From Cymodocea nodosa (lineage: Eukaryota > Streptophyta > Magnoliopsida > Alismatales > Cymodoceaceae): a DNA stretch of 64,000 bases. Where the stretch lies: contig CM072347.1 in NCBI GenBank assembly GCA_036874045.1, forward strand, positions 7,318,501-7,382,500, read 5' to 3'. Below, piece after piece: positions 1-60,361 of this stretch. The notes under the pieces were generated by a model. The model worked only from the letters and a program-made list of their open reading frames with translations. It had not been told where the DNA came from and did not search any database. Position 1 is the first letter of the stretch. The number at the start of each line of letters is the position of its first letter. The position numbers were made by a program, and so were the translations under genes.

Positions 1-1003
1 TGATCTCCTCTTCAGCATACAGGCATCAACCCGAAGCCAAGGCTAAAAGCTTTACGATCTCCTGAAATATGAGTCGGCGCTTGGTGAAAATGTCTTCCCT
101 TCCCGCGACGTGATCACTCCTCACAGTGGTTGTTAGGCATTGTGTTTGGCTCAGAATCGACCCGACATCAAGCAAGTATCCTCACAAACCTTCGATGATT
201 GGTGATTATGGTGCTGATAACGATGGTTGGTGTGATACTTCAGAGAATCGCCGATACTGTCTGCAGAAAGCTTGGTGCTCCTCCTCTGTATACACTGGCC
301 GTCCATCGATCACACTCTTTCTTTTTTTCTTCTTTTCTTTTATATTTCTTTAGTGGTAACTACTTCTGCTTGAATGATCAGTTAGATTTCCTTCCTTCAG
401 ATCAACGGCGATGATTTCTTTCTCCCTACGCGATTGAATTCCTGCGTGATACGTGCGAACGTTGTTTTTCCTTCCAACTGTCTGTTCCTGCAATCGCTAT
501 AGTGGCATATTAGAAAATATATAGTCCGTGGAGTTACAGATAACTCAATGGACTTCTTTCATTGATTTAACTATAAAACACGTGCAAAAATAACAACTTA
601 AGTTTGTAACGCTAACCTAACGCGTTGCCTTAGTGTTCAATATAGCAACTCAACGCGTACAGTTATGCTAACTTAACGAGTTATAACTTAAGTAAATCTA
701 CCAGATCTCGACACGTGTCAGTAGTAGTTTAAACATAAAATAACATTTTGGAGAGTTACAGGTATAACTATCCGATGCTCAGATGCATTTTCGGATACTT
801 AAGAATTTCACAGCCTACAATTTACCAACAGTTCATAAATGTACTAAATTTACATTAATTCCCTAAAATTAAGCAAATTCTTCAATTAAAGCATATAACA
901 GTGCAATTATAACATAATGGCTTAATTCTCATATGATAAGCTAAATATTATGCAATTAACCATCATTTAACTGTTAATAATATGCACTTTTTCATTTTAA
1001 ATA
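1..1003 (-). repeat. 3' LTR of gypsy A (partial)
   Basis: Direct repeat of 14956-15958. It ends at ttttaaata, where the 5' copy has ttctaaaca, followed by the polypurine tract. The canonical CA end (TG in element sense) has mutated to TA. It contains the conserved TATA-like motif (minus strand, about 343-350), the 103-base U3 module at 581-683, and palindromes such as that near 523-552. The rest of the LTR lies before base 1. Confidence 0.9.
581..683 (-). repeat. U3 module shared with copia H LTR
   Basis: This 103-base stretch has about six mismatches by eye against 49847-49949 in the 3' LTR of copia H. It also occurs in the 5' LTR of A (about 15536-15640) and, more diverged, in the LTR of B (about 19955-20055). 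It is absent at the matching place in the LTR of E (about 43100-43130). It starts next to a CACGTG core and includes a CTTAAG and repeats of the form AACTTAACGAGTTA. Confidence 0.85.
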
Positions 1004-3893: not shown

Positions 3894-3902
3894 TTGTTGA
3901 TT

Positions 3903-3925
3903 CTGTAAAATAAAAACAAAAATTT
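3903..3925 (-). promoter_or_regulatory. Candidate 3' splice site upstream of the F-box start
   Basis: The minus strand reads a T-rich tract ending in ttttacag at 3904-3903, ten bases before the F-box ATG. This fits a plant intron acceptor and would allow the F-box to be expressed from a spliced element transcript, as known for env-like ORFs of retroelements. The donor is not identified. Confidence 0.45.
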
Positions 3926-6383: not shown

Positions 6384-8611
6384 TTAATCTTTCTGCCTAA
6401 GTTTATCTTCTTCCTTCTGGAGTTTTTCTAATTGCTGCTCTAATTGATTTATCCTCTCTACTGCTCCTGCAATTTCTCCAGAAGGTACACCTAATTCTGC
6501 AGCTACAAAATTTATGTATTCTTTCACTGAAATGGTTCTAGATTTGATCCTTTTTGATGTCCATTTAGTGAAATCAATACAATCCACCATCAGCAGTGGA
6601 ATCAAATCTCCATAAAATAATTTCTTCTTCACTGTTTTCAGCTTGGAGATAAAAACTGCAAACCAATTTATTTAGATCTTATTTACAACTGCATACGTGG
6701 CCCATTTGACAAATTGACTTAATTCTATGTCATGGCCCTGTCGTTGATAGACATTCTTAATCAGAATGTTAGCTACCATGTCTGCTTTACCATTTAAATG
6801 CTTCAATCTGTTTAATAATGGCACACCAGGATTGATAGCCAAACAATCCTTAATTTGCTGCTCAGTCCATTCAATTGTAGTGGTATCTTCCAAAATTTTT
6901 GTTCCTTCATTCTTTAAACCAAATATGTTGTGAAGAAGCTCTGGTGTTATCTGTACATCAGCTTCCTCCACGTTTGAAATTAATCCTCCTTCTCCTTCTC
7001 TTAAATTTGCATAGAAACAGGGCACTAAATTCTCATATACTGCATGCCCTCTTTCTTGAGATATAAATTGCAGTAGACCTTGGAATTCAAATAGATCTTT
7101 GATTTCTTGCATTCCATCCCAATTTACTGGTCTACTGTAAATAATATCGTAACCCCTTATTTCTTGGTATTTCGTATAAGCTTCTTGACTACAAAAATAT
7201 ACTTCATTCAAAATTGTTGTTTCAGTCGGATTAGGAAGGTGACTTTGTTGCTCTAGAGGGTTTTGCTCTTGCTCTTCCTCTAGTATAGGCTGCATTTGGA
7301 CATTCTCTTCAGATTCCTGAATTTTTGCTTTTGCTTCTGTCTGTGGTGGTGAGCCGGCAGATCTCTCCACTCTATCTTGAATTCTTTCCATAATTTGCTA
7401 AAGAGTTTCTTGCTCTTCAGTGGAATCTGTGAAATTATTTTTGTCCAAATGGCTTCTTTCAGCCTTTTCATTTTCTACTCTTTCTTCTTCCTCCTAACTA
7501 CCAATCTGTTCTGTTACTATTCTTTCTGATTCTGTAACAGATTGGGATGGAATCACGGGCAATTCAGTTTCTGCCCTAATTTCTGTTTCTTCTTGTATAG
7601 GCTGCAAACTAATTTCAGCCTGATTTTTTTCTTTTCTTTGCTCCTCCTGCTCCTCCTCAAATTCGGATAGCAAGTTAATAAAAATCTACTCCACAGGCCC
7701 TATAAAAATTGGTACTTCAGATTTAATTTCTTCATATTCAGGCACTTTTTCTTTTTCTTTCTTTTTTCTGATTAGTTGTGCTTGTTCTTCCTCTTCATCT
7801 TCTGAAATTAAATCTACAAAAATAGGTTCTGCAGGCCTTCGAACCACAGGCATTGGCTCTTCCTATTTAATTCTTCCAATAATTGCTGGTCTCGAAGGAC
7901 CAGCTTCAGCTTCTTTTGCAGCATCTCTAACAACAATTCTGGCAATAGCTTCTTGATGCTATTCCACTTTAATTTTATATTGGGATTTCAACTTTTTTGC
8001 AGCCCTCTTTTTATACAGTGCATCAAACACCAAGTGTGCTTTAGCCACTGCCAAATCTTCTGATTCTCCTTGGTTTTTCCAACTTGAACTAGTTCTGCAA
8101 ATTCTCTTATTTCTTCTTCAGTCGAAGGCTCCATCATTTCTGCTCGTGCCAATGGCTTAAATGGTGGAACTGAAGGTCCAGACTGCTGCTCCTCAGGAAC
8201 AGGTCTTTCAGCAATTGGTTCCTCCCGTTCTTCAGTTGCCTCTTCATTTTCTTTCCTTTCTTGCTCCCAGATCGCCCATTTAGCTTGTCTACAGATTCAT
8301 CTTTTGAACTAGAGCCGAGACTTACGCTGGATTAATTCTAGGGCAACTTCATTACTTGGCCTCATTTGTCTTTCCTTGCTTATAGCTATTTCTGTTGCTA
8401 TTCTGATTCGTGTTTCCATTATTTGAGGTATTTGTATATCCATATCTACTAAATCTCTTCTAAACTTGAAAAGTTCTGATTCTACATTCTGTATCTCTTT
8501 CTCTCTTGTCGTATTTCTGATCTTCTACCGCGTGTGCCACTCTTCTGATTCCTTCAGAAATTCTGATGTATCAACAACATCTTCCCAGAATTCAGGCGTC
8601 ATCTTCCTCAT
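6384..8611 (-). pseudogene. Post-integrase accessory ORF (aORF) of gypsy A
   Basis: About 740 codons from ATG at 8611, with several stops and frameshifts; the longest open part is 6672-7391. The N-terminal half is charged and Gln/Glu-rich. The C-terminal half is a globular domain with LFEFQGLL (about 7071-7094), FYANL, ITPELLHNIFGLKNEG, a YQRQGHDIELSQFVKWATYA block and KLFYGD (about 6608-6625). It ends in a coiled coil (INQLEQQLEKLQKEED). The pattern recalls the domain annotated in plant genomes as putative plant transposon protein (Pfam PF20167), an assignment from memory to be tested. No signal peptide or membrane segment is visible, so it is not an obvious envelope. The stop before the INWF block is CAA to TAA, intact in copy E. 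Homologues occur in gypsy E and in copias G and H. Function unknown. Confidence 0.85.
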
Positions 8612-9326: not shown

Positions 9327-12300
9327 CTAAGTAAAACTCGAGTAGTCCTCTACTCTAACTTCTTCTATAATTCCAAAGGAGCTTTTGGGTGTTTTCAGAA
9401 TAGGTTTAAGTCTTTCTCCATTTACTTTAAATATATTCTGATTTTTAGGATTTTCAATTTCAATAGCTCCATAAGGATAAACATTTCAAACTATGTAAGG
9501 TCCTGCCCATCTAGATCTTAATTTTACTAGATGGTTATGGAGTCTAGCCAGATAAAGATATACTTCATGTCCTATTTTAAAGCTTTCAGGAATAATTTTT
9601 CTATCATGCTAGAATTTAATTTTCTCTTTTTCTCTTACAGTATTTGAATAAGCTTAATTTCTAAATTCTTCTAATTCAATTAGTTGCATTTTCCTATTTT
9701 CAGCAGCTTGATTTAAATTAGTATTCAGTGTTTTTAATGCCCAATAAGCTTTATGTTCTATTTCAGCAGGTAAATGACAACTTTTTCCATATACTAGCCT
9801 AAAAGGTGACATACCTAAGCTCGTTTTATAAGCAGTTCTATAAGCCCAAAGTGCATCAATCAATCTATTAGCCCAATCTGTTCTAGTAGGATTTACTACT
9901 TTTTCCAAGATTAATTTAATTTGTTTGTTTGCACTTTCTACTTGTCCACTTGTTTGCGGATGATATGATGCTGCAATTTTGTGGTTTACTCCATATTTCT
10001 TCATTAAGGCTTCAAAACTTCTATTACAGAAATGACTTCCTCTATCACTAATAATAGCTTTAGGTATTCCAAATCTGGCAAATATATTTGTTCTTATAAA
10101 TTGTATTACCACTTTGTTATCATTAGTTTTTGTAGGAATAGCTTCTATCCATTTAGATACATAATCCACCCCCAACAATATGTAATTAAATTGATTAGAT
10201 ATAGGAAATGGACCCATAAAATCTATTCCCCACACATCAAAGATTTCAACCTCAACAATAGGATTAAGAGGCATCATATTCCTCTTTGATATTCTTCCTA
10301 TTTGTTGACATCTTAAACAACTTAAGCAATATTTATGAGCATCTTTGAATAGTGTTGGCCAATAAAACCCACATTGTAGAATTTTTGCAGCAGTTTTCCC
10401 TGAACCAAAATGTCCTCCACAAGCTTGGTCATGACAGAAAGACAATATGCTCGAATATTTAGTTTCTGGAACACACCTCCTTAAAACCAAATCAGGACAT
10501 TTCTTAAATAAGTAAGGGTCTTCCCAATAGTAATATTTTACTCTTGAGAAAAACAATTTCTTATCCTGTCTATTCCAATCCTTAGGTGTTAAACCAGTAA
10601 CTAAGTAATTAACTATGTCTGCATACCAAGGCATTGTGTTGATGGTCATTAATTGTTCATCAGGAAAATTATCCTTAATTTCAATATTTGATTTTTCTAT
10701 TTGTAATCTTGATAAATGATCTGCTACTACATTCTCACAACCTTTTTTATCTTTAATTTCTAGATCAAATTCTTGCAATAATAATATCCATCGGATCAAT
10801 CTAGGTTTAGTTTCTTTTTTCTTTATTAGATGTTTTAGAGCTAAATGATCCGTGTATACTATTACTTTAGCTCCAATCAAATATGATCTAAACTTTTCTA
10901 AATCAAACACAACAGCTAATAATTCTTTTTTAGTAGTTGTGTAATTAACTTGAGCATCATTTAAGGTTTTGCTTGCATAATGAATCACTTTAGGAGATTT
11001 TTCTATCTTTTGTCCTAACATTGCTCCTACAGCAAAATCAGAAGCATCGCACATTAATTCAAATGGATGGTTCCAATTAAGTGCTTGAATTATAGGAGTT
11101 GAAATTAAGCTAGTCTTAAGTCTGAAAAATGTTTCCTTGCAATTTTTATCAAAGTTAAATGGAACATCTTTTAATAGATTAGTTAAAGGTCTAGCTAAAG
11201 TCTTTAATAAATCTTCTATAAAAACCAGCATGTCCTAGAAATGATCTAATATCTTTTACTGATTTAGGTTCTGGTAGATTAGAAATTACTTCTATTTTAG
11301 CTTTATCTACTTTCAACCCTTTTTCAGAAACAACATGCCCTAAGACTATTCCTTGTTTAACCATGAAGTGACATTTTTCCCAATTTAAAATCAGATTTTT
11401 TTCCACACAGCGTTTTAATATTTGGTCTAAATTGCTTAAACACACTTCATATGAGTTGCCATATACAGTAAAATCATCCATAAATATTTCTAAAAATTCA
11501 TCAGTCATTCTAGTAAATATGCCCTGCACACACCTTTGAAAGGTAGCTGGTGCATTGCATAATCCAAATGGCATTCTTTTAAAAGCATAAGTTCCATTAG
11601 GACAGGTGAAAGTTGTTTTTTCTTGATCCTCTAATGCTACTAGAATTTGATTATACCCTGAATACCCGTCTAGGAAACAAAAATATTCTTGCCCTGCTAA
11701 TCTTTCCAGCATTTGATCTATAAAAGGTAAGGGAAAATGATCTTTCCTAGTCTCAGCATTCAGCTTTCTATAGTCTATACATACTCTCCAGCCTGATTAA
11801 ATTCTAGTAGGTATCAAGTCTTGACTTTCATTCCTAATAATTGTTAATCCTGATTTCTTGGGAACTACATGGATTGGACTAACCCACGAGCTATTAGAAA
11901 TCGGATATATTATATCATTATCTAACCATTTAACTATTTCCTTCCTGACTACTTCCTTAAGGTTTGGATTTAATCTCCTCTCAGGAATTCTAACAGGTTT
12001 AGCATTCTCTTCTAAATATATGTGGTGACAGCATAAAGTTGAACTTAACTCTTTTATATCAGTCATAGTCCATCCTATTGCTTCTTTATAACTTTTTACT
12101 ACATCTTTTAATTTAGCTATTTGATCCTCTTTCAAATCTGAAGCAATAATGATTGGATAGGTCCGTTTATCTTCCAGAAATATATAGGTTAATTCAGGAG
12201 GTAAAGGATTTAATTCTAAATGCTGCCCATCAGAAGCTAGAGCTCCTAATTAAACATCATCATTTTTTAAATTAATTTCTTCATGATCTCCTTCTATATT

Positions 12301-13965
12301 TATGCTTTCACTTTCTTCTAAAGTTTCAGAATTGATTTGCCTATTTAATTCTTCTTGAATCACATTATCTAACATATCTCCTTCATCCTCTAAAAAGTCT
12401 ATGGTATGTAAGGATATTTCTAACTCCTCAAACCTTTCTGGTTTGAAAATATTTAATTGAGTATCCTCATTACCATATGTTAACTTCATTACTCTAGTTT
12501 TACAATTTATAACAGCCCCTGATGTTGCTAAAACTGGCCTTCCCAAAATTAAAGATGTATCACTATTTTTATGCTTAATTTGTTGGGAATCCAAAATTAC
12601 AATATCAATAGGATATATAAAATTCTTGATTTTAATTAAGACATCCTCTATTTTTCCTCTAGGGTATCTTATACTTCTATCAGCTAATTGAATAACCGTA
12701 GTACTAGGAGTTAAGCCTTCTAATCCTAAGGATGCAAATATATCACTTGACATAACATTTATACCTGCACCTAAGTCTATTAAGGTTCTTTCTAGAATGG
12801 TATTTCCTATGGTGCATGATATAACAGGGATTCCAGGATCAGATAACTTTTTAGGAATTTGTGGCAGAAATAGGTAACTACTTTGCTCAGCTAAAAAGAC
12901 CTTTCTAAGAACTTTTTGCTCTCTTTTCTTAGTACACCAATCCTTCAAAAATTTAGCACAAGGTGGCATATTCTGCAATAGATCTAACAAAGGAATGTTA
13001 ACTTGTACTTTTTCAAAAATTTCTCTGATTTTTTCTTATTTTTTAGGCATTGTTTGTTGTAATCTTTTAGGATAGGGTGCTAAAGATTTTGATTTCAAAG
13101 ACTCTTTTTCTTTCAGTTGATTTGTTTGATTATTTTTAGCTTCAATTGTAGATTCAGATTGTTCTTCAGTGATTTCTAGATTTTCAGTTATTACATTTTC
13201 ATTATCATTTTGATTTTTACTCTTGTCCACCTTCATATCATTTTCATTTTGAGTTCTTGGTGGTATATCAGTTCCAGATCTTAATGTTACACATACATCT
13301 TCCAGATTTTCATTACTTTCATGATGTTTTTATATATCATTTTCGTGATTATGATCTTCAATTGTTTTTAGTTTTAAAGTGCATTTTTTAAATTCTCTTA
13401 CATTAGTGTTTTATGTTTGTTGTATATTTTGCAAGTTGTGTAGGTTTATAACATTATAATTTTCATTGTCCTGTTGCAAAACTTGTATTTTCATTGCATT
13501 TTTGTCTAATGCTTTTAATTTTGTTTCCAGATCATCTAATTTCATTGCATTCAATTTTTGATCAATTATCTTTATGGCTCTTTCAGTTTCGTAAATTATA
13601 TCCTGTTTAGGTTCTGAATATGCCTCATTATAGTTTAATTGGTTGACTTCTTGTTGTTGACACACAAAATATTCCAGTTTGTCTAGATTTTGCTCTATAC
13701 TATGCTCCAGTCTGTCATAGTTATCCCAAACTTTAGTGTCTCTCATCATATTACACATTCGATACTGATCATCAGTTGGGTAAACTATAGGATTCTCATA
13801 CTCGACTCTATTATATTGAGGATAATTCATTTATTGTTCATGAGATCTATCAATCTGTAAATGTCTCAATTTCAAACAATCAGAAATGTCGTGTCCTTTA
13901 GAATTGCAGAATTCACATATGCTAATTAAAGGTTTCAGAAATCTTTGAGCATAAGCATATGCCAT
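9327..13965 (-). pseudogene. pol: Pol polyprotein of gypsy A: zinc knuckle, protease, RT, RNase H, integrase
   Basis: The frame starts at MAYAYAQRF (13965), about 140 bases after the primer site. A CCHC zinc knuckle (CEFCNSKGHDISDC, about 13930-13885) is followed by a low-complexity linker. The aspartic protease has DLGAGINVMSSDIFASLGL (about 12790-12730). RT carries FGLCNAPATFQR and the catalytic FMDDF (about 11490). RNase H keeps all four acidic positions (CDAS, KKELLAV, YTDH, VADH). Integrase keeps a zinc-binding HHCC region (about 10440-10300) and D-D-E (GIDFMG, SDRGSHF, QVESAN), then a C-terminal SH3-like RSRWAGPY region ending at 9327. No capsid domain precedes the knuckle. Damage includes a CAA to TAA stop at 13830, others near 13410, 13030 and 11797, a frameshift near 11200 and stops near 9654-9480. 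The RNase H-integrase frame 9654-11231 is still open over 525 codons. Confidence 0.93.
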
Positions 13966-14104: not shown

Positions 14105-14122
14105 TCCCTAGCAACGGCGCCA
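14105..14122 (-). other. Primer binding site of gypsy A (tRNA-Asp type)
   Basis: Minus strand tggcgccgttgctaggga matches the 3' end of plant tRNA-Asp (complement of ...CCCCGGCAACGGCGCCA) with one or two changes. It lies about 7 bases inside the LTR end. Copy E keeps the perfect form. Confidence 0.9.
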
Positions 14123-30977: not shown

Positions 30978-32188
30978 TATAAGATCGTTTGTATCACAAG
31001 AGAGGGGGTGAATTGTGTCTTTAGTAATTAAACTAGTGGATAAAACAAGAGCACAAAACACTCGTAAATGAAATTCTATTCTTTTATTTCAAGATAGAAT
31101 TTACAATATCTTTTCAACTCAATTTCCTTCTTGACGGTTTTGATACAGTAATTTTTGATATACAATTCAAATAGGAAAGTAAAGCTCTTTTTCGAAACTA
31201 ATTTTGAATTGTATAAAACCTGATCTTTATGCACACAGCTCTTTTTTTTCTCTTTGCTCAGCTTCTATATCTCTTCTTCTCCAGTTGTCGAATTTCTAGA
31301 CTTCTTGCATTTGCAGCTCCTTTTCTAAAATTGCTTGGAATTTTGAACTTCTTCTGATATTAGAGAACTTTTCAGAATATGAATATTCAAACTTAACTTT
31401 TCAGTTAGGGATCCAGATTGAATATTCAGACTTGGTTTTTTGAGATTGGGATCACCTGTTGTAATGTAGCTCGTACTCTCTATTAGTAGTCAAACTCTGT
31501 TGTCTTTCACGTTCAGCATGCTCATCCACTTGATCCACAATCCATAATCCACGTACTAATTTTATCTTTAATCCAAATTACTTTCTATTTAAATTTCCAC
31601 TTTCTTCACTGACATTTTGAGTTTCCACGATCTCCACTCGTAGATACATCAAAACTTTATCTTCTTGGAGTCTTGTAGAATATCTTCTAAGTCTTCGATT
31701 TAGTCGAGCAGTTATCCTTTAACTCTTGTAAAAACTCAAACACTTGTCCTTTAACTCTTCAAGTTTTTGCACCTGCAAAACATGTGACTAAACAAAGAAA
31801 CTTATCTGTTCGTTAGTCCTTTTATAAAACTCGAACAGTTATCTATCCATGCGTATAAAAACTCGAATAGTTATCTAACTATTCAATTTTTCATTATTGA
31901 ACGCACATGGAAAACATGTGACAAAAAACATTAAAAACACACGTGCAGATAACTTAACTATACGAGTTTTTAACATAAAGTATTTGACAAAAATGAAATG
32001 TTAACTATCCGAAAGTTTAACTATTGCAAATCTAGCTCTTCAGAAATCTTTAATTTATCTGACATAAAAATGAAACTTTCTAATGATCTGTTAACTATTA
32101 TACTTAGAGAAATATACTTAGAGAATATTATGTAGACTTATTTAAATACGTTAATAAAGCATACATCATCAAAATTAAATACCTAACA
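30978..32188 (-). repeat. 3' LTR of copia G
   Basis: 1211 bases, near-identical to 39433-40638. The outer edge reads TATAAG where the inner edge of the 5' LTR reads TGTAGG. Rich in tatctaactat/actcgaacagttat palindromes. Confidence 0.92.
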
Positions 32189-32291
32189 ATCTCCCCCTTT
32201 TTGATGATGTTAAAACCTAATAAGTCACAATTTATATCTCCCCCTTTTTGGCATTAAAAGAAATTAAACAAACTATTTTCTCCCCCTTTAG
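32189..32291 (-). other. Array of three polypurine tracts in copia G
   Basis: Three AAAGGGGGAGA-type tracts (minus strand) start at about 32190, 32236 and 32279. The first abuts the 3' LTR. The same arrangement occurs in H. Confidence 0.7.
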
Positions 32292-32524: not shown

Positions 32525-35083
32525 TTATCTTCGAAAAATATCAATCAGAGTATCTAAAATTTTCTTTGCAATATCTGTACTAACTTTGTTTATCTAATCA
32601 AGTAATGCTTGATCTAAATCATTTTGAGAAACTTGTGATGGTTGCTGTAAAAATTTAGTATGTATGTCTGTATCTATACCTATATGTATTTCTCTATGTA
32701 TACCTTGTTGTATATCTATATGTATATCTTGTTGTATATCTGTATGTTGTTGTGTTTGCCGAACCTGTTGTTGTTGTTGTCTGAGGATAGGTGTATCTGC
32801 CTCTTGATATTTTTGGAGTTCCTTTGCAAAGAAAGATCATGACTTTAATCTTTTCTGTGGCTAAGGTGTAATATCTGTTTGACTTGCCACAATTCTCAAA
32901 ATTGTATCACCATAAAATAATTTACTTTGCAAATGTAAGATATGAGAAACAAAAATATCATACCAGTTCACCTGTATATGGTTTATTAATGCGTATGTAG
33001 CATAAAGACAACATCTGCCAACTTCTGTCCCATGACCAAACCTCTGAAACAATGTAGCATGCAATATTTTTGCAATAAAACGTGCTTGGCCATTTAAGTC
33101 ATTTAGTAATGTCAATGGTTTGTTGGCAGTTGGATCTTTGGCTAAACTTGTAATGTCCTATCCCAATCGATAAACCTGTTTTCTTTCTGATAATTTAACT
33201 CCATTTTTCAGACCAAGTACCTGATGAAGTAAATCTGGAGTTAAATATATGTCATTTTCTTGTATATTAGAAATAGGAATACCTTCTTCCACTGTTAAGT
33301 TTGAGTAAAAACAACTGAGAAGTTTGGGTATAGCAAGATGGCCTAGCTGTTGTGGAAGTAGAGTCAACAAGCCTTGAAATTCAAACAGTTCACGTATGTG
33401 TGCCATCCCTTCAAATTTAACTGGTCTTGAATATAAAACTATAAAAGTTTTATATGTCTGAAATTTGTCATAACAGGAATTATTTCTGAACCATAATAGT
33501 GTACTTTCATCTAAACTTTGTTCAAAATTAGGTATTTTCCTGTCATGATGTTCTGATCTGGGACTTGTTTCAATATTATCAATAGCATCTATATTGTTAC
33601 ATCTTTCAGAACTAGTGGAATTTCTATCAAAACTAGTATAAATGTGTGAAATATCTGTTATTGTCGTATCAATAATCTGCTAAATTTCTTCTATTTGTTC
33701 TTCTGGAAACATTTCAATAGCAACAGTCTCTGTAACAATTTGTATATCACCAACCTGTATATCTATATGGGATCTATACAACTGTCTCTGTACGAAAGAA
33801 TGTTCTATATCTATCTGTGGAATAGAATCATGCTGTATTTCTGAAATTTGTATATGTGAGACATGGGTAGTATCATATTCTATTTGTAACTGTGTATGTT
33901 ATTGATTATATACATTTATCAACAAGTATATGATATATTGTAATAGACATAACCATACATATAAAATGTAGTATAAGCAACTGTACCAAAATTCAAAAGT
34001 CTCTGTTCGAGATACAGTAAGAGGAAGAATATCTGTACATTCCTCTTCAGATGAAATATCTTCAAAATTCATAGACTCAGTGTCTATGTCATCAATAATA
34101 TCATCAAATTTGATATCATCTGTATATATATCAGCAAAATTTCCTACATTCTCACTTTCCGTAGGAAAAGAATGTGTGCTTGCAGCATTGCGTGAAAAAC
34201 TGTCCATTGTATTAAAAGATACATTATGCACTAATGTGACACAATACCTTAGAGTATATGCTTGTAAGCCAATATTTGTAACATCTGCTAGGATTCCTAA
34301 CAAAAATGTCTGTCCAGCTTCTGCAATGGAACATAGTTTTCCATTTTTCACTGATTATTCTTTTTGCTGCAATATTCCCTGTACACCTACAATTAGTCCA
34401 AAAAATTCAATTGTCTTTTTCTTTGTTCGACTATATGTCTGCAATGTTTCAGGTTGTTCAGGAGGTTCTAAAATTGTTTTAATTTCTCTTGTTAAAGGCA
34501 CCTGTTGTCTTGATGGTCCTTCACCATGATGCCTAGGTGGTAATAATGGAATACAGAGTTTTAAGCTCTCCACCTCTACCATTTTGAGTTGATAAACTCT
34601 TTGTCCTTCACTTCGAATGCTCATTTTGCTAATAGCAGTTTTCTATTCATCAATATATTGTTTAATATCATCTAAAATAGCTGGGGGAAAATAATGTTGG
34701 GAATACAAGGATTGTAATTCCCTGTTTGCATTTTTGATCATTGGTCCCCACTTCTTTCCATAATAAGTGATAAACTGTACCGATGTCTCTGGTACATGTC
34801 CAGAACTTACAACCATAGGGTTAGGTTGTAAATTTCTTTTCCATAAATGCAATGCGGAAAGTTCAGTCTGTTTTAGTCTAAACTGTGTTTCAGAATGATT
34901 TCAAATAAATTTCCAACAGAAATTTTTCTCATCTTGAACAGCTTTTCTGATTTCATGTAGTACTTCATTTGAAAAAGTGTACCTGGAGTAAATATCGTTG
35001 ATTTCACTTTGGATTTTCTAAATTTCCAGCTCTCTTTTCTACACTTTGGTCATTCTACCACGTCCTCTTCCACATCCTGACAT
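32525..35083 (-). pseudogene. Post-pol accessory ORF (aORF) of copia G
   Basis: From MSGCGRGRGRMTK (35083) to IFRR-stop (32525), with many stops and shifts. The conserved domain includes LFEFQGLL (about 33369-33391), CFYSNL, YLTPDLLHQVLGLKNG, LFQRFGHGTEVGRCCLYATYA and SKLFYGD (about 32910). The C-terminus is Gln-rich with an expanded repeat of IDIQQ-like units (32650-32800), then a short helix LDTLIDIF. It aligns with the aORF of copia H and, in the domain, with the gypsy aORFs. Function unknown; no membrane segment in the conserved domain. Confidence 0.82.
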
Positions 35084-35830: not shown

Positions 35831-36683
35831 AAAGATAATTCATAGAGATATACCTACAAAAACTTAAAAGAATTCAATAATGAGTACACAACTTAAGACA
35901 ATAAATATCGTACATTATGTGTAAAGAGTAGATAATAACAAAAATAATAAGGATTATATGCACAAATTATGGCCGGATTGTTATAACACCTTGAAAGATA
36001 AATTAAGCTTGACTACATTACCCTTTTTTTTTTTTGGTTTTTTTTATTATTATATTCATATATATATATTTTATGTATTACCTCCCACAATATCATCTTT
36101 TTATGTGATCACAATCTCTTGTTTAGGAGAAAGATAACCAGTTATTCAATGACAAGTGAGAATAGGGAATTTTTTTTTTAAATATAATCTGAATTACTTG
36201 TGAAATGAGTTTTCAGTCAGTACATCCCAAACCAGTTGGTTTAAGTGACTAGGATTTAAGATCCCCCAACGGACTTAATTACTCAAGTAATTATAGACAA
36301 AAATAAAACAAGACAATAAATTAAATTAGAGGCAACCGCAAGACTTAATTTTTCTAACAAAATGTTAATAACTTTCCTTTAATAAAAAGTACATACTTTC
36401 TATGTATTTCCCTGTTAAAATCTCAGTAATAGCATATACATAAGTAACAAAAATATAGTTGGCACTCACATTGAATCAATTTAACTTTTCCTTAAGTAAT
36501 CTTTTCTGAATTTTTCTTAAATAAATTGACTTCAATAAAAATCAGAATTTCATAAATTCTTAACTACTAGAAAACTGTAATTCGAAAATAGATATGTTTT
36601 TTTTTTTTTTTTTATTTTAATAATAAAGACATTAAATTCTAAAACTACCTTATAACAAACCAAAATACAATGAACATGACCAT
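35831..36683 (-). other. Spacer between pol and aORF of copia G, gene-free
   Basis: AT-rich with T-runs (36028-36040, 36171-36180, 36597-36614). A stretch near 36205-36280 weakly recalls the spacer of H. No gene seen. Confidence 0.6.
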
Positions 36684-39328
36684 TTAAATATAAGATAACC
36701 TATAAATACCAAGTTCTAATCGTAATTTTGAGAATGTACTTTCATCTAAGGGTTTTGTAAATAGATCTGCTAATTGTTATGTGGTAGGAACAAAATTTAA
36801 TACTATTTTTTCTTTTATAGCATTATCCCTTAGAAAATGATGTCAAACTTCTATATGTTTTGCTCGTGAATGTAAGATAGGATTTTTAGATAAACTAATT
36901 GTAGAATTACTATCATAGAAAATCTTAGTTGGTTCATAGTCTAAATTAAAATCTTTTAAGGTTTGAGCACAGCAAAGTGCAGCAGCTATATATTCAGCTT
37001 CAGTTGTAGATAATGCTACACAATTTTACTTTTTGCTAAACCATGACAATAAAGAATTACCTAACAATTAACAAGTGCCACTAGTGCTTTTTCATTCAAA
37101 CTTACATCCTACGAAATCAGCATCACTATAATCTACTAAGTTTAAAGAACTGTGTTTAAAGTAAAACAGTCCAAAATTGATGGTTCCTAATAGATATTTA
37201 AAAATTCATTTAACAGCAAGTAGGTGTGATTCCTTAGGATTTAATTGATATCTAGCACAAGTACACACACTAAACATAATATCTGGTTGGCTAGGTGTTA
37301 AATAGAGTAATGAACCAATCATACTTTTATATTGTTTTACATCTATAGTTTTTCTAGAGTCATCTTTATCCAACTTGGTGATAGTACTCATTGGTGTATT
37401 CTTTGTTTTAGTGTTGTCTAAACCAAACCTCTTTAATAAATCTTGAGTATATTTTTCTTATGAAATAAAAGTACCCTGATCTAATTGCTTAATTTGTAAG
37501 CCTGGGAAAAATGATAGTTCACCCATCATACTCATTTCAAATTGATTAGTCATGTCTTTCGAAAAGGACTCAACTAATTTATCATTTGTTGCTCCAAATA
37601 TGATGTCATCTACATAGATTTGAACTACTAATATATCTTTTTTGATCTTCTTGATAAAAAGAGTGTGATCTACCTTTCCCATAGAATACCCTTTTTCCAT
37701 AAGAAATTTAGATAATCTTTCATACCAAGACTTAGGAGCTTGTTTAAGGCCATATAGTGCCTTCTTAAGCTTGTAAATATACTCAAGATGTTTTGAATCT
37801 TCAAAACCTAGAGGTTGTTTTACATACACTTCTTCTTTTATATATCCATTTAAAAAAGCAGTCTTAACATCCATTTGATATAATTTGAAATCCATAGAAC
37901 AAGCATATGCTAACAAAATTCATATTGATTCTAGTCTAGCAACAAGAGAAAATTAAAACCTAAAGAGCAAATGTCCATAATTTTACAGGAATCTTTTTCA
38001 AAAATTACTATGTAAATCTTCATTAAAACAGGAACACTCAATAAATTAAAACCTAAGTTTTCAACTAATAAGACATCATTTATAAAACATTTCTCAGTTA
38101 CCTGAACCTTGCCAAACCCAAGGATATTTGTTTTGCTTTTATTTCCAAAAATAACTTGTTCGTTCTTGGTCTTTGTTATTTCTGAAAGTAATCGTATATC
38201 TCCAGTCATGTGGTTGGATGCTCCACTTTCCATTATCCATTTTGATTTGTGTACCTCACTAGATTTTGCCATAAAGCATACATTTGCCAGATTTTCTTCT
38301 GAATCTGATGCTGATGAGGATTCATTGTCTGATGTTGAATCCTTTGTTTCTTCACTTTGTGAAGCTGAAGAGTAATCCCATGTCACTTTAAGCACCCTTC
38401 TCTTTTTGAATTTCTTATTCCTGAAATTCCTCCTCGAATTCTTCTTATCTTTGTTGGGAGGACAATCAGTTTGAAAGTGACCCGACCTATTGCACTTGTA
38501 GCATATACTTTTGTCTTTTGTGAATGACTTCTTCTCCATATCTCTAGATGTCTTTGCTAACCTGAAGTTCCTACGTTTCTTCAACAGATTTCTAAATTTT
38601 CTGGTTAACAATAGTAAATCATCATTAGAATCACTAGTGACTTCTGAGACTTTATCAACCTCAAAAGTCAGATCCCTTCTAGGATTTTTCCCTTTTGGAT
38701 CTAAATGTTGTACTTCATAGGCTGTCAGATTTCCTATGAGATCATCGAGAGTATATGTATTTAAGTCTTTTGACTCTTCAATAGATGTTGTCTTTTGAGC
38801 CCAAATTTTAGTTAAAGATCTAAGGATCTTTCTTACCAAGTCTTTTTCCTCGAATTTCTTGCCTAAAGATTTCAATGAATTTACAATCTCAAGAAAACAG
38901 GAAAACATGTCAGAGATACATTCATTTTCGTGCATTTTAAAAAGCTCATATTTATGTACTAACATATTGATCTTAGATTCCTTGACCTGATTAGTACCTT
39001 CGTTGGCAACTTCTAATGCATGTCATATCTCATATGCAGTTTGATATGTAGAAACTTTATTAAATTGATCATGAGATAAAGCATAAAACAAGATGTTTAA
39101 ACCTTTAGCATTCAGTGTCATTCGCTCCTTTTCATCAAAAGTTCAAGTATCATATGGAGTCGTAACTAACACTATAGGATTGCTAATTATATGCCATAAT
39201 TTGAAATCGATTGACTGAAAGAATACTTTCATCCTATATTTCCAGTAGCCATAATTGTTACCTTCGAACATAGGAGGATGATTAGTGGTCTGTCCTTCAG
39301 TCATAACTAAGATTTCAGAATTATCCAT
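36684..39328 (-). pseudogene. gag-pol: Gag-pol of copia G with integrase deleted
   Basis: Gag from about 39328 (MDNSEILVMTEG, HPPMFEGNNYGYWKYRMKVF), KINMLVHKYELFKM core, CCHC knuckle CYKCNRSGHFQTDC (about 38495), protease with WIMESGASNHMTG (about 38240; D-S-G changed to E-S-G) and NLGFNLLSV. Near 37930-37990 this joins directly to RT (MDFKLYQMDVKTAFLNG, IYVDDIIFGA with intact DD), so all of integrase and the start of RT are missing, roughly 1.9 kb compared with H. RNase H (KSTSGTC, ALSTTEAEYIAA) follows in damaged form, ending at 36684. It can move only with help in trans. Confidence 0.9.
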
Positions 39329-39419
39329 TTTAAACAGATGATCCAAAGTAAATGACAGGAAAAACCAATTCCTAAATAGAGAAATGAAGGCTTTTCGGAT
39401 GCTTTAAACAGTTTAATTG

Positions 39420-39431
39420 CTCTGATACTAG
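39420..39431 (-). other. Primer binding site of copia G (tRNA-Met type)
   Basis: Minus strand tagtatcagagc next to the 5' LTR; the family's usual tggtatcagagc with one change. Confidence 0.82.
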
Positions 39432-40638: not shown

Positions 40639-40643
40639 ATATC

Positions 40644-44585: not shown

Positions 44586-44603
44586 TGGCGCCGTTGCCGG
44601 GGA
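44586..44603 (+). other. Primer binding site of gypsy E (tRNA-Asp)
   Basis: tggcgccgttgccgggga, a perfect complement to the 3' end of plant tRNA-Asp including CCA. Confidence 0.95.
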
Positions 44604-44689: not shown

Positions 44690-47600
44690 ATGGCATATGC
44701 TTATGCTCAAAGATTTCTAAAACTTGTAATTAGTATATGTGAATTCTGCAATTCTAAAGGACATGACATTTCTGAATGTTTGAAACTGAGACGTTTACAG
44801 ATGGTTAGATCCCATGAACAACAAATGAATTATCCTCAATATAATAGAGTCGAGTAGGAGAATCCTATAGTTTACCCAACTGATGGTCAGTATAGAATGT
44901 GTAATATGTTGAGAGACACGGAAGTTTAGGATAGGTATGACAGATTGGAGCGTAGTATAGAGCAAAACCTTGACAAACTAGAATACTTTGTGTCAGCAAC
45001 AAAAAGTCAACCAATTAAATTATAAGGAAGCATATTCAGAACCTAAAATGGATATAATTTACAAAATTGAAAAAACCATAATGAAAATTGATGAAAAATT
45101 GAGTGCAATGAAATTAGATGATCTAGAAAGAAAACTAAAAGCATTAGACGAATATGCAATGAAAATACAAGTTATGCAACAAGATAATGAAAATTATAAT
45201 GTTATAAACTTACATAATTTGCAAAATACACTACCAAAAGAAAATATTAATACAAGAGAATTTAAAGAATGCACTTTAAAACTAAAAACAATTGAAGATC
45301 ATAATTACGAAAATGATATACAAAAACATCATAAGAGTAATGAAAATCTAGAAGATGTTTGTGTAACATTAAGATCTGGAACTGATATACCATCAAGAAC
45401 TCAAAATGAAAATGATATGAAGGTGGATAAGAGTAAAGATCAAAATGATAATGAAAATGTAATAGCTGAAAATCTAGAAATCACTGAAGAAGAATCTGAA
45501 TCTGCTAATGAAGCTAAAAATGATCAAACAAATCAAATGAAAGAAAAAGAATCTTTGAAATCAAAATCTTTAGTACCCTATCCTGAAAGATTACAACAAA
45601 CAATACCTGAAAAATAAGAAAAAATCAGAGAAATTTTTAAAAAAGTACAAGTTAACATTCCTTTGTTAGATCTATTACAGAAAATGCTACCTTGTGCTAA
45701 ATTTTTGAAGGATTGGTGTACTAAGAAAAGAGAGCGAAAAGTTCTTAGAAATGTCTTTTTAGCTGAGCAAAGTAGTTCCCTATTTCTGCCACAAATTCCT
45801 AAAAAGTTATCTGATCCTGGAATCCCTATTATATCATGCACCATAGGAAACACCATTTTAGAAAGAACCTTAATAGACTTAGGTGCAGGTATAAATGTTA
45901 TGCCAAGTGATATATTTGCATCTTTAGGATTAGAAGGTTTAACTCCTACTAGTAAGGTTATTCAATTAGCTGATAGAAGTATAAGATACCTTAGAGGAAA
46001 AATAGAGGATGTCTTAATTAAAATCAAAAACTTTATATATTCTATTGATATTGTAATTATGGATTCCCAACAAATTAAGCATAAAAATAGTGATACATCT
46101 TTAATTTTGGGAAGGCCATTTTTAGCAACATCAGGAGCGGTTATAAATTGTAAAATTGGAGTAATGAAGTTAGCATATGGTAATGAGGATACTCCATTAA
46201 ATATTTTCAAACTAGAAAGGTTTGAGGAATTAGAAATGTCCTTACATACCATAGACTTTTTAGAGGATGAAGGAGATATGTTAGATGATGTGATTCAAGA
46301 AGAATTAAATAGGCAAATCAATTCTGAAACTTTAAAGGAAAGTGAAAGCATAAATATAGAAGGAGATCTGGAAGAAATTAATTTAGAAAATAATGATGTT
46401 CAATTAGGAGCTCTAGCTTCTGATGGGCAGCATTTAGAATTAAAACTTTTACCTCCTGAATTAACCTATATATTTCTGGAAGAGAAACGAACCTGTCCAA
46501 TCATTATTGCTTCAGATTTAAAAGAGGATCAAATAGCTAAAATAAAAGATGTAGTAAAAAGTTATAAAGAAGAAATAGGATGGACTATGACTGATATAAA
46601 AGGGTTAAGTTCAACTTTATGCTGTCACCACATATATTTAGAAGAGAATGCTAAACCTGTTAGAATACCTAAGAGGAGATTAAATCCAAACCTTAAAGAA
46701 GTAGTCAAGAAGGAAATAGTGAAATGGTTAGATAATGACATAATTTATCCGATTTATGATAGCTCATGGGTTAGCCCAATCCATATAGTTCCCACGAAAT
46801 CAGGATTAACAGTTATTAAGAATGAAAGTCAAGACTTGATACCTACAAGAATTCAATCAGGCTGGAGAGTATGTATAGACTATAGAAAGCTGAATGCTGT
46901 GACTAGAAAAGATCATTTTCCCTTACCTTTTATAGAACAAATGCTGGAAAGATTAGCAGGGCAAGAATATTTTTGTTTCCTAGACGGGTATTCAGGTTAT
47001 AATCAAATTCCAGTAGCATTAGAGGATCAAGAGAAAACAACTTTCACATGCCCTAATGGAACTTAATGGAACTTATGCTTTTAAGAGAATGCCATTCGGA
47101 TTATGCAATGCGCCAGCTACCTTTCAAAGGTGTATGTAGGGCATATTTACTGGAATGACTGAAGATTTCTTAGAAATATTTATGGATGATTTTACTGTAT
47201 ATGACAACTCATACGAAGTTTATTTAAGCAATTTAGACCTAATATTAAAACGTTGTGTGGAAAAAAATCTGGTTTTAAATTGGGAAAAATGTCACTTCAT
47301 GGTTAAACAATGAATAGTCTTAGGGCATGTTGTTTCTAAGAAAGGGTTGGAAGTAGATAAAGATAAACTAGAAGTAATTTCCAATCTACCAGAACCTAAA
47401 TCAGTAAAAGATATTAGATCATTTCTAGGACATGCTGATTTTTATAGAAAATTTATTAAAGACTTTAGCAAAATAGCTAGACCTTTAACTAATCTATTAA
47501 AAGATGTCGCATTTAACTTTGATAAAAATTGCAAGGAAGCATTTTTCAAACTTAAGACTAGCTTAATTTCAACTCATATAATTCAAGCACCTGATTGGAA

Positions 47601-48747
47601 CCATCCATTGGAATTAATGTGCGATGCTTCTGATTTTGTTGTAGGAGCAGTGTTAAGACAGAAAATAGGAAAATCTCCTAGAGTGATTCATTATGCAAGA
47701 AAAACCTTAAATGATGTTCAAGTTAATTACACAACTACTGAAAAAGAATTATTAGCTGTTGTGTTTGCCTTAGAAAAGTTTAGATCATATTTGATTGGAG
47801 CTAAAGTAATAGTATACATGAATCATTCAGCTTTAAAACATCTAATAAAGAAAAAAGAGACTAAACCTAGATTGATCCGATGGATATTATTATTACAAGA
47901 ATTTGATCTAGAAATTAAAGATAAAAAAGGTTGTGAGAATGTAGTAGCATATCATTTATCAATATTACAAATAGAAAAATCAAATAGCGAAATTAAGGAT
48001 AATTTTCCTGATGAACAATTAATGACCATCAACACAATGTTTTGGTATGTAGACATAGTTAATTACTTAGTAACTAGTTTAACACCTAAGGATTGGAATA
48101 GACAGGATAAGAAATTGTTTTTCTCAAGAGTAAAATATTACTATTGGGAAGACCCATACTTATTTAAGAAATGTCCTGATCTGGTTTTAAGGAGGTGTGT
48201 TCCGGAAACTGAATATCTGAGCATATTGTCTTTCTATCATGACCAAGCTTGTGGAGGGCATTTTGGTTCAGGGAAAACTGCTGCAAAAATTCTGCAATGT
48301 GGATTTTATTAGCCAACACTATTCAAAGATGCTCATAAATATTGCTTAAGTTGTTTAAGATGTCAACAAATAGGAAGAATATCAAAGAGGAATATGATGC
48401 CTCTTAATCCTATTGTCGAGGTTGAAATCTTTGATGTGTGGGGAATAGATTTTATGGGTCCATTTCCTATGTCTAATCAATTTAATTACATATTGTTGGG
48501 GTGGATTATGTATCTAAATGGATAGAAGTTATTCCTACAAAAACTAATGATAACAAAGTGGTAATACAATTTATAAGAACAAATATATTTGCCAGATTTG
48601 GAATACCTAAAGCTATTATCAGTGATAAAGGAACTCATTTCTGTAATAGAAGTTTTGAAGCCTTAATGAAGAAATATGGAGTAAACCACAAAATTGCAAC
48701 ATCATATCATCCGCAATCAAGTAGACAAGTAGAAAGTGCAAACAAAC
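44690..48747 (+). pseudogene. pol: Pol of gypsy E, truncated in integrase by H
   Basis: Starts at MAYAYAQRF. Intact CCHC knuckle CEFCNSKGHDISEC, then the HEQQMNYPQ segment that is interrupted by a stop in A. Protease-to-RT frame open 45663-47066 (467 codons) with DLGAGINVMPSDIFASLGL. A small tandem duplication of aatggaactt at about 47054-47073 breaks the frame in RT; FMDDF is kept (about 47190). RNase H has lost two catalytic positions: YTDH is YMNH and VADH is VAYH. Integrase has a W to stop change near 48310 and a frameshift near 48500, keeps IISDKG and QVESAN, and stops at 48747 where copia H is inserted. Compared with A it lacks the integrase C-terminus, deleted with the right edge of H. 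Confidence 0.92.
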
Positions 48748-49055
48748 TATAGGATCGTATGGCTACACAAGAGGGGGGTGAATTGTGTATTTTTAATATT
48801 TTTTGAAATATAATTGAAACTTTAAAACTCAAAAACAAGTCGTGACATTGTTTTCATAAAATCATTTTTATTCAAGGTTTCAATTACAATATACAATTCA
48901 ATTCTCCTTAGAAATTATAGATGCAATTATATTTCGATACCATGTATCATCTAAACAATTTCATAACTACAAACAGAGAAAACTAATTTACGGAATTTAA
49001 AACTTTTCTCCCTGTTTGAGATCTTTCTTCTTCTTCTTTTTCTTCTTCAGCAATT

Positions 49056-49254
49056 CTTCAGTGACAAATATCTTGTCTTTTCATGCTTCACTGAATTTGC
49101 TTTCTTCTAATACTTCAAATCTTCAGTGACAAAAATCTTACCTTTTTATGCTTCACTGAACTTTCTTCCACTTGAGAGATTGTAAATCTTCAGTGACGAA
49201 AATCTTACCTTTTTACGCTTCACTGAACTTTCTTCCACTTGAGAGATTTTCCCT
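49056..49254 (-). repeat. Three tandem units of about 66 bases in the copia H LTR
   Basis: Units start with cttcagtgac at 49056, 49121 and 49188 and share ttcatgcttcactgaa-type centres. The truncated 5' LTR has about two units plus a partial, so copy number differs between the LTRs. Confidence 0.8.
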
Positions 49255-49846
49255 GAGAAGGTGTTTTTCATCCCTGAAAAAGATTTTTCTTTTGGTGTGC
49301 AGGGATGGTTTGATCCTCGAAAAGATTTTTCTTTTTGCGTGCAAGGATAAATTGATCAATGAGAATTCTATGCCTTTTATACTGTATCTTCATTTCATGC
49401 ATATCCTTCACGTTTAACCACCACCAGTTTTCCACTTCTCCACGTCTTTTCTTTTTCCTTCATCGAAACACACACGTTCTAACCCACGTTTATATTTCAA
49501 ATTTTCTTTAATCATCAGTCCTGGATCTTTGAAAAATTTTCTGCAAAATAAACTTTCTCGTCCAAAAGTTTTTCATCAGTGTAATAAGAAGTCGTTACTT
49601 TAATGTTAACTAAACGAGTAACACAAGTATATATATAACTTAACGTTTCTAACTTAACGAGTTCCTCATATGCCATTTCACGTGACAAGTACTGTAGCTA
49701 ACTCAACAACCTAAGTCCGTGGTATTATGCTAATTCAATGAACCATCTCCGTTGTGTTATGATAACTCAACGAACCATCTCCGTTGTTTTATGATAACTC
49801 AACGAACCAGTAATAAACAAATGTTTTTATAATAAGAATTTTACCA

Positions 49847-49949
49847 CGTGCAAAAATAACAACTTAAGTTTATAACACTAACCTAATGCGTTGCCTTAGT
49901 GTTCAATATAGCAACTCAACGCGTTTAGTTATGTTAACTTAACGAGTTA
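49847..49949 (-). repeat. Gypsy-type U3 module in the copia H LTR
   Basis: About six mismatches in 103 bases against gypsy A 581-683, in the same sense. The following acatgtgcacctcacgtgat matches gypsy B (about 20053-20072) and not A. Confidence 0.85.
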
Positions 49950-50417
49950 AACATGTGCACCTCACGTGATACAATACAACATTCGTAACTTATAATTTCA
50001 CCATGTGTATAACACTAACTTAACGAGTTCGTCTCTTCTTTTACTCATTAACTTAACGAGTTATCACGTGACCTATTTTAACCTTTAAGCCTCTAACTTA
50101 ACGAGTTCTCTAAACAAACAAAACTCTAACTTAACGAGTTGTCTAAACGTGCACTGTTCATGATACAGAAGATATAACATTAAAACATATCATGCTTTTC
50201 AATAAAAACACACGATAACTTAACGTTTAGCTAAATGAGAAATTAATGCAACGAAACGACTAGTTATTAACTTCAAATCCAATACAGACAAGTATTTATA
50301 TCAGTAAGCTTTTTCTGTATTAATTGATGATTTTAATTTCTTTTCACAAGCAATAGTAATCGAGCAAATATGATTATTTTCATTCAGCACACATCATCAA
50401 AACAAAAATACTAAACA

Positions 50418-50800
50418 ATCTCCCCCTTTTTGATGATGACAAAACCATATTAAATCAATTATGAAATATGTATAACTCAACAAAGCACCTTCCTTGGGTT
50501 AACTTTTAATTCAACAAACTTGTTTATTGACTTAAGTTCACTTAAGCTTATTTCTATTGTTTGTGTAAATTTTACCTCTCAGAACTAAAAACTCTCAAAT
50601 GTCAATAATTATATAAATATCAGTTTTCTAATTATCATCTGTCAGATTACAATAACCATTCAAAATAGCATCTCCTTTTAATAATATATATATGCAATTA
50701 AGATCATAATCATCTTTTTATAATATTTCTCCCCCTTTTTGTCATTAATCAAAAAGATAAGTAAGAATTGTAAAAGATAATTAACATTTCTCCCCCTTTT
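50418..50800 (-). other. Array of three polypurine tracts in copia H
   Basis: AAAGGGGGAGA-type tracts (minus strand) at about 50419-50432, 50726-50740 and 50786-50799, the first abutting the 3' LTR. The rest of 50418-50942 is AT-rich without genes. Confidence 0.7.
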
Positions 50801-53213: not shown

Positions 53214-54796
53214 CGTTGTAGGTTGTAACAGCAACAAGCGGGAAAGATTTTCTTGACAAAGTTTACAAATAACCTAAGTCCCCGTGTTATAAGTGTTTAA
53301 ATAGGGTTTTTAGGCGTATAACTCAACGTGAAGATAAGTCGGGTTTAGAAATAAAATAAATATTGAATAAAGCTTATTCAATCAAAGTACCCAAAATATT
53401 CAAGTATTACTCGTTGAGTTAACTAATCTAACGAGTAAAACACTGTCTAGAGGCAGTTTTACACGTTACCTTATCTAACATAACGTCTAGTTAGTACACT
53501 TAAACAAGTTTCGGATGCTTCCAACTAAAACATTTCGAAAACAACACACATGCTAAATTTAACATTATCTTGAAAACATTGTAAACTATTTGAAGATTTT
53601 GTCCTTTGAATCTAAAATAGTTTATTTGTCTTTTTAAATTATTTCATCAAGATTTTAAGACATTAATTAAGATTAACTAAAATTTGTATTTTAAATTATA
53701 TTAATCTGTTTTTGACATTGTTAATGCTCCCCCTACAAATATACTTCAAATATATTCAATCAAAATACAAAATATACTTGTAGTGACAATAGATGTTAAG
53801 TATAACTATACTTTTACATTTTCTTTTCAGAGACTTCCCTTATCCTGACATCATCAAAAATGATTTCCAGAATCAATTCCTACTGTATATGAATCAAAAC
53901 ACAACTTTGAACTCAATTCGATTAATTCAAGGAGAATAAAAGAATGTATCTCAAATAAACGTTTTCAAAAGTACTAATGTTGATTCAATAAATCAGTAGT
54001 CATATTGGTATAAACTATATGCGATTCAAAGATATCTGTAATTAATGAAACAACTTTTTCTTTTCAAAATAATAAATATTGATAATTTTCTTTAAAAGTT
54101 AGTTTGAAAAGCTTGAATCATACAAGAGCTTTCTAATGTACCCGTGTAATGAGCTTTCAGTCAACAATCCCAGATCTGATCAAGACCTTAGGTTGCCAGA
54201 TTTAAAGAATCCTTTTTCAGGACAACAATCCTTACATACCTATCTACTCAAGTACAAAAGGCTCGTGATCAAACTGATCAATAAACTCTCAAAGATTTTT
54301 ACTTTGTAAGCACATTTCAATTTAAGCACAGTATATATGTATGCCATTAATACAGATGCAATAAAACACAAATCTCATACAATTTTTACTTCTATGATTG
54401 TACTGAGAATATGAATCAGTTTCAATAAGCTTATACTTTTGATTAATAGTTTAAGATGAGTTACATTTAACTTATTCTACAAGTTTAATTAATTAAGTCA
54501 AATTTATGCATGATCATATGCATTTTCCTTGATTGAAAGAAAACATTTAATCAAAATTTCAGAATGTCAGAAGTATTTAATGTTTTCATTTACACTTCCA
54601 CTTAAAATTGTAAAAACCATTAAAATTGATAAACTACTTAAAATCAATAAGATACTACTATGATTTTACAATAAATACATAGTAGCTTAAGCAGCAGTTT
54701 AGATATTACTTTACATATTTATAATAAGTATATAATATCTATGAGGTGAACAACATCATCAATAATATTTATCTTTTTATGTGGAGTTTAAGCATT
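53214..54796 (-). other. Spacer between pol and aORF of copia H
   Basis: Gene-free. Palindromes at 53315-53480 (actcgttgagtta-n-taacgagt). The part about 53850-54700 is the segment shared with the 3' UTR of gypsy A. A purine run (minus strand gtagggggagc) is at about 53727-53737. Confidence 0.7.
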
Positions 54797-60162: not shown

Positions 60163-60350
60163 TTTACCTTAGATTTTTCAACCTATTTGATTTTAAACAG
60201 TCTAAAAGGTTTAAAACAACTTGAGCCTTAAATCAATAGAGTTAAACGTATGCTCAGATATTAATTTCTGTTTAAAAACAAGGAAGGTAGAATAAGCAAT
60301 GATATTAAATAAGTTGGTATCGATTTTATATTAAAGATTATTAACATAGC

Positions 60351-60361
60351 TTTGATACCAC
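60351..60361 (-). other. Primer binding site of copia H (tRNA-Met type)
   Basis: Minus strand tggtatcaaagc-like site two bases from the LTR; one change from the canonical tggtatcagagc. Confidence 0.8.

Follow-up and report, generated by a model that had tools for sequence, protein, structure and literature searches.

In plant retrotransposons, open reading frames (ORFs) that follow pol have traditionally been termed env-like, with their function unproven. The locus analyzed here, a 64,000-nucleotide stretch of the Cymodocea nodosa genome (the window), holds such ORFs in elements of both the Ty3/gypsy and the Ty1/copia superfamilies, and it raises the question of whether these ORFs are related and, if so, how one gene came to reside in both. 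An initial annotation had placed four accessory ORFs after pol and in sense, in gypsies A and E and in copias G and H. Their spans proved correct, each in the same orientation as the pol of its element (minus in A, G, and H, plus in E; Table 1), and the post-pol, sense placement was borne out in both gypsies and both copias. None of the four is intact today, and those of A and E require two reading frames in addition to being broken by stops. In random sequence with a per-codon stop probability of 0.07, 750 codons should contain ~53 stops, far more than the 4 found in H and the 11 in G, so these ORFs look like decayed genes. For all comparisons the spans were translated and then split into stop-to-stop pieces.

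Table 1 Coordinates of the four elements' features in the window.
Feature	Position	Strand	Remarks
Gypsy A 3' LTR	1..1001	-	Truncated at window start; partner 14957-15956, 95% (blastn)
Gypsy A post-pol accessory ORF	6384..8611	-	Degenerate, two frames
Gypsy A shared C-terminal domain	6588..7232	-	Open pieces 6675-7397 and 6387-6671; tblastn with copia H piece
Gypsy A pol pieces	9657..13035	-	Protease, RT, RNase H, H2C2, rve; integrase after RT
Gypsy A primer-binding-site-like 13-mer	14110..14122	-	1 mismatch
Copia G 3' LTR	30980..32195	-	blastn bounds; partner 39435-40645, 93%
Copia G Sirevirus PPT octamers AGGGGGAG, n=3	32191..32287	-	
Copia G (Sirevirus-like) post-pol accessory ORF	32525..35083	-	11 internal stops
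Copia G shared C-terminal domain	32867..33490	-	Open pieces 33161-33679 and 32864-33157; tblastn
Copia G ORF membrane-like hydrophobic segment	33911..33967	-	N-terminal to shared domain; Kyte-Doolittle 2.10
Copia G gag/pol	36683..39284	-	
Copia G tRNA-Met-type PBS	39419..39430	-	1 mismatch, adjoins 5' LTR
Gypsy E primer-binding-site-like 13-mer	44586..44598	+	Exact
Gypsy E gag/pol part	44982..48747	+	Then interrupted by copia H
Copia H 3' LTR	48750..50417	-	Start inferred from terminal PPT
Copia H Sirevirus PPT octamers, n=3 after accessory ORF	50420..50797	-	Fourth at 53734, before ORF
Copia H (Sirevirus-like) post-pol accessory ORF	50943..53213	-	4 internal stops
Copia H shared C-terminal domain	51219..51896	-	Within single unbroken open stretch 51216-52346; tblastn
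Copia H gag/pol	54796..60168	-	Gag, PBD, GAG-pre-integrase, integrase, RVT_2; integrase before RT
Copia H tRNA-Met-type PBS	60349..60360	-	1 mismatch, adjoins 5' LTR
Gypsy E post-pol accessory ORF	61199..63407	+	Degenerate, two frames
Gypsy E shared C-terminal domain	62582..63191	+	Open pieces 62255-63019 and 62997-63404; tblastn

Sequence comparison confirmed that a C-terminal domain of ~220 residues is homologous in gypsies A and E and copias G and H, its similarity being beyond chance. The motifs LFEFQGLL, FYxNL, GLKN, QRxGHxxE, ATY, NW, and KLFYGD keep their order in all four ORFs; the wordings LGLKN and YATY of the initial annotation do not hold for the gypsies, which read FGLKN and WATY. 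Piecewise alignment of the four domain copies gave 49 identical columns out of 174 ungapped, although it represents in effect three sequences because A and E are near-copies. When the unbroken copia H piece (377 aa) was searched by tblastn against the 64-kb window with the low-complexity filter on and E<=1e-3, the only matches apart from itself were copia G at 46% over 210 aa (E 2.9e-57), gypsy A at 36% over 219 aa (E 1.6e-43), and gypsy E in two pieces at 34% and 45% (E 1.7e-30). A gypsy A piece in turn matched copia G at 40% over 192 aa (E 8.8e-39) and copia H at 34% over 190 aa (E 1.5e-33), so that identity between gypsies and copias spans 34-45% by piece. Smith-Waterman z values for the main domain pieces were 51.6-56.7 for A-H and 41.2-48.3 for A-G, and for the short C-terminal pieces 16.1 and 12.4. 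None of 300 shuffles reached the domain scores, for the main or the short pieces.

Such a result could in principle be an artefact, either of a gypsy fragment nested inside the copias or of low-complexity similarity, and nested elements are abundant in the window: copia H is inserted in gypsy E, and copia G in copia F. However, no DNA match of at least 120 bp at 1e-10 connects the gypsy and copia ORFs, and in each of the two copias the ORF is flanked by pol on one side and the terminal polypurine tracts (PPTs) on the other, with N-termini that are related to each other. A match limited to low-complexity sequence is excluded by the filtered search and the shuffles. We consider an artefact practically negligible.

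The homology does not extend over the whole ORF as the initial annotation had supposed; it is confined to about the C-terminal third. N-terminal pieces compared between gypsy and copia gave z values of -0.8 to 0.8 in six pairs that include some of A's pieces only, and the copia H stretch preceding the domain scored 0.3 against gypsy A. Between the two copias, N-terminal pieces scored 4.9 to 8.0 (three pairs). A short motif in the N-terminus of copia G occurs there in two related copies (z 5.5).

The identities proposed for the elements, Athila-like for the gypsies and SIRE-like for the copias, are both supported by anatomy. Gypsy A has the domain order PF00078, PF17917, PF17921, PF00665 of Ty3/gypsy elements, and E has the same order as far as H2C2. 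A candidate for the Athila primer-binding site is a 13-mer present exactly in E and with one mismatch in A. A tRNA-Asp primer is reported for the Athila lineage in the cited passages of PMC1142308 and PMC2533021. Neither a chromodomain nor a second RNase H was found at E<=0.01 in the scanned RNaseH-INT piece of A or the interrupted piece of E, and the joint lack of these domains excludes chromoviruses and Tat by the account in the cited part of PMC6317226.

Gypsy A contains further coding material. An open stretch of 297 aa at 3033-3923 (minus strand) matches the F-box profile PF00646 (E=1.2e-9) and lies in sense between the accessory ORF and the 3' LTR. A gag core (PF03732, E=7e-20) sits at 4446-5306 (minus strand), downstream of the accessory ORF. 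Upstream of pol, in the frames inspected in A and E, only a zinc-knuckle remnant of gag was seen.

Copia H shows the Ty1/copia domain order. A 12-mer of the tRNA-Met-type primer-binding site (PBS), with one mismatch, adjoins the 5' LTRs of copias G and H; it has 4 matches in the window against 3.1 expected, and its evidence is therefore position rather than number. The PPT octamer AGGGGGAG occurs 7 times in the window, always in G (3) or H (4) and always on the sense strand. Sireviruses are described, in the cited section of PMC2829016, as having multiple PPTs ahead of the 3' LTR, with a distance of 10 bp between the LTR and the final one, a rule that we read as an octamer starting 10 bp before the LTR. 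The final octamer of copia G begins 10 bp before the TG of its 3' LTR; in copia H the LTR start was itself set from the PPT. If the 3' LTR of H does start at the terminal PPT, its 5' LTR is truncated, with only 48750-49183 of the 3' LTR retaining a partner (60365-60785, 93%). Copia F measures ~5.7 kb by blastn bounds once the nested G is subtracted.

Control comparisons with pol of the same elements address whether the domain could have descended with them from a common ancestor of gypsy and copia. Four pairs of RT pieces, each combining one gypsy (A or E) with one copia (H or G), scored z 3.1, 2.6, 1.1, and -0.5, single values that should not be pressed since the pieces are broken; the RNaseH-INT piece of gypsy A scored 2.7 and 5.3 against two integrase pieces of H. 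Even within copias a broken piece can score low: the RT piece of copia F gave -1.7 with one H piece, 2.9 with G, and 27.5 with the other H piece, and the low-scoring pairs probably lack overlap. In tblastn searches of the window with gag and pol queries from gypsies or copias, no cross-superfamily match at 1e-5 appeared among the matches listed. Copias G and H are mutually close in pol, where F is distant; their RTs share 77% identity over 78 residues (LG distance 0.31) and 65% over 260, their gags 45-53%, and their accessory domains 46%. Distances for the domain under LG+G4 were 1.22-1.40 between gypsies and copias and 0.98 between G and H, so that its depth between superfamilies appears little greater than between the two Sireviruses. 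This relation varies along the domain. In its N-terminal half A and G are 46% identical, versus 40% for H and G, whereas in the C-terminal parts G and H share 63% and 53% versus 34-47% with A or E; a tree of the four sequences groups the two copias because of these closer C-terminal parts.

Vertical inheritance would account for an ORF that follows pol in both superfamilies. It is nonetheless very unlikely, because between superfamilies the similarity of the domain far exceeds that of RT or integrase, and yet within the copias it falls below that of RT; moreover copia F, in the same window, gave no tblastn match to the domain. To be reconciled with these data, it would require evolutionary rates whose order is inverted from one comparison to the other. 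We are thus highly confident, from these comparisons, that the domain does not derive from a gypsy/copia ancestor but moved between the superfamilies or was captured twice from one source, at a depth not much beyond that of the split between Sireviruses G and H. The initial proposal of a cassette transfer or a shared host gene is sound in respect of lateral transfer or repeated capture; the unit concerned is the domain, not the whole ORF.

Profile and database searches bear on the source of the domain. The suggested link to Pfam family PF20167 (Transposase_32) was recovered weakly for the gypsy copies and not for the copia copies: A scored 20.3-21.1 bits (profile positions 7-116 of 177) and E 19.2-20.6 bits (positions 7-70), below the curated cut-off of 45, and there was no match in copia G, copia H, or the database fragment P0001. 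The shared domain is at best a distant relative of PF20167. The gypsy copies being nearer to this family fits, weakly, a transfer from gypsy to copia. The sole relative in the protein database was P0001 itself, a 115-residue ENA fragment of unknown context that shows 88% identity with copia H across 45% of the query. Searches of bacterial and archaeal genome contigs with the copia H domain, of viral contigs with the gypsy A piece, and of PDB sequences at E<=1 found no relative, and Rfam at gathering scores gave no match. Two AlphaFold2 models (pLDDT 42.6 and 38.7) were too poor for fold comparison.

Alternatively, a host plant gene family encoding the domain might have entered an Athila-type and a Sirevirus-type element in separate events. 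Two such captures would be expected to leave N-terminal pieces unrelated between the superfamilies, as found, and the F-box ORF lying in sense in gypsy A indicates that such elements carry cellular-type genes. Against this, the post-pol, sense position is identical in both superfamilies, and the protein database yielded no host gene that contains the domain, a weak objection since that database appears to be poor in plant proteins. We judge two independent captures to be rather unlikely, while retaining them within the broader explanation that we favor on balance: a single C-terminal domain, laterally transferred or twice captured, that would be directed at the host, probably nuclear, and not an envelope. 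In each superfamily the domain is fused to a different N-terminal part, and no relation between these parts was detected. The partner of the domain would most likely be a host component, because the two kinds of elements share little in their gag and pol proteins, primer sites, and PPTs. This suggests that the domain may act on the host plant rather than on the copying machinery of the element.

The name env-like implies another role, that of an envelope or movement protein for spread from cell to cell or plant to plant. The position and sense of the ORFs are those of env, the name is in use for such plant ORFs (in the cited passages of PMC7264820, and for SIRE and Athila in those of PMC4093653), and copia G has a hydrophobic segment. 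This segment lies outside the shared domain, and scanned pieces of the other three ORFs contain no membrane-like segment: by Kyte-Doolittle means over 19 residues, all other scanned pieces stayed at or below 1.12. The earlier statement that membrane segments are lacking thus holds for the scanned pieces of A, E, and H and fails for G. With membrane segments missing in the scanned pieces of three of four ORFs, an env role is disfavored, and we regard it as improbable.

Other protein features were unevenly distributed. Clusters of the form RKKKxK precede the domain in A and E, and the pattern K[KR]x[KR] is present in A and E and absent from the four scanned pieces of G and H. The ORFs of A and E end, as judged by eye, in a leucine-heptad-like tail. 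A 3' sense ORF of a sunflower Athila element has a PF20167 match and a predicted nuclear signal, according to the cited portion of PMC11728184. The initial annotation had put forward silencing suppression or nuclear import as candidate roles. We hypothesize that the domain has a regulatory or anti-silencing role inside the nucleus, that element specificity comes from the variable N-terminal part, and that the domain is not a fusion envelope; by analogy with the VANC proteins of VANDAL transposons this is plausible, if somewhat short of probable.

Comparison of A with E gave low dN/dS values for the domain, of 0.17 (202 codons), 0.07 (38), and 0.30 (95); an N-terminal ORF piece gave 0.11 (dS 1.34), and pol pieces gave 0.57, 0.15, and 0.44. 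All of these values are limited by the decay that both copies have undergone and by the simplicity of the counting method. The dS was 0.32-0.39 in the domain versus 0.08-0.13 in pol. The most divergent 400-bp stretch between the two gypsies, at 8000-8400, is 68% identical versus 83-98% in the other intervals compared, and falls in the N-terminal part of their accessory ORF. On the basis of the higher ORF dS and this stretch, we considered whether the gypsies had recombined between pol and the ORF; the idea was dropped, the two copies being degenerate, and we make no claim for it.

Two short non-coding boxes, TAACTATCCGAA (box 1) and AGTTAACTCAACG (box 2), recur in LTRs and linkers of both gypsies and copias, scattered over 765-43105 and 538-63990, respectively. 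Box 1 has 38 matches in the window with 1 mismatch, versus 0.27 expected, and box 2 has 42 with 2 mismatches, versus 1.6 expected, counts to be read in light of the boxes having been chosen because they are repetitive and of LTR copies not being independent. At 1 mismatch, none of the 38 box 1 matches or of the 17 box 2 matches falls in coding-labelled DNA, where 17.4 and 7.8 would be expected by length; at 2 mismatches, 4 of 42 box 2 matches do. The coding labels omit C, the internal regions of B and F, and, in A, the portion with gag and the F-box; unlabelled regions of F and A hold four box 1 and three box 2 matches at 1 mismatch, and C holds one of box 2. The boxes do not track the accessory ORF: box 1 is missing from copia H and box 2 (1 mismatch) from copia G, and box 1 is present in F and probably D, both of which are without a known copy of the domain. 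A regulatory link between boxes and ORF, drawn by analogy, would be only a lead.

A longer non-coding block is also common to gypsy A (1153-1995) and copia H (53732-54520), in the same sense, with 70% identity over 859 bp and a 185-bp core at 91%. It lies before the 3' LTR in gypsy A and between pol and the accessory ORF in copia H, where it ends at a PPT octamer. Its core showed no unusually stable RNA (z -0.07 and -0.19).

One domain present in both superfamilies provides a single object to test and argues for a host factor as its partner, and a single protein would suffice to ask directly whether it is an envelope or not. It also suggests that two superfamilies whose polymerases can hardly be aligned have exchanged genes or captured them in parallel. 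In the open-access passages and paper listings consulted, we found no report of homology between Athila-type and SIRE-type accessory ORFs. The cited passages of PMC1142308 and PMC6317226 stress that post-pol ORFs lack sequence similarity; the latter's divide SIRE extra ORFs into 19 groups that resemble one another little or not at all, and the cited part of PMC9289625 saw no domain gain in plant copia elements.

Several known systems resemble the arrangement described here. The env-like ORF of Athila, Calypso, and Cyclops has the same post-pol position and sense, and PF20167-type ORFs are approached by gypsies A and E only, at 19-21 bits and under the cut-off, with no match from the copia copies. 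Sireviruses such as SIRE1, ToRTL1, and MtRetro3 have an extra ORF between pol and a 3' end with multiple PPTs, like G and H (PMC2829016, cited section), and the env-like ORFs of MtRetro3 and LjRetro3 measure 774 and 793 aa in the passage cited from PMC4093653. In VANC of VANDAL, conserved and highly variable regions are combined with short motifs in non-coding tandem repeats, as described in the cited text of PMC5735166; VANDAL is a DNA transposon and not a retrotransposon, and the likeness concerns a possible way of working only. By that analogy, and from a sample of one window and four elements, we tentatively raise the possibility that env-like genes of plant gypsies and copias are, in part or more, no envelopes but a single accessory module, with a C-terminal domain aimed at the host and an N-terminal part specific to the element, VANC-like in its anti-silencing function and traded between the superfamilies, within shared plant nuclei, together with short regulatory boxes. 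The ORF3s of bdelloid rotifers, as presented in the cited passages of PMC5408684, are likewise extra ORFs common to very different retroelement types; they differ in their GDSL and DEDDy domains, in their animal host, and in being shared between LTR and Penelope-like elements.
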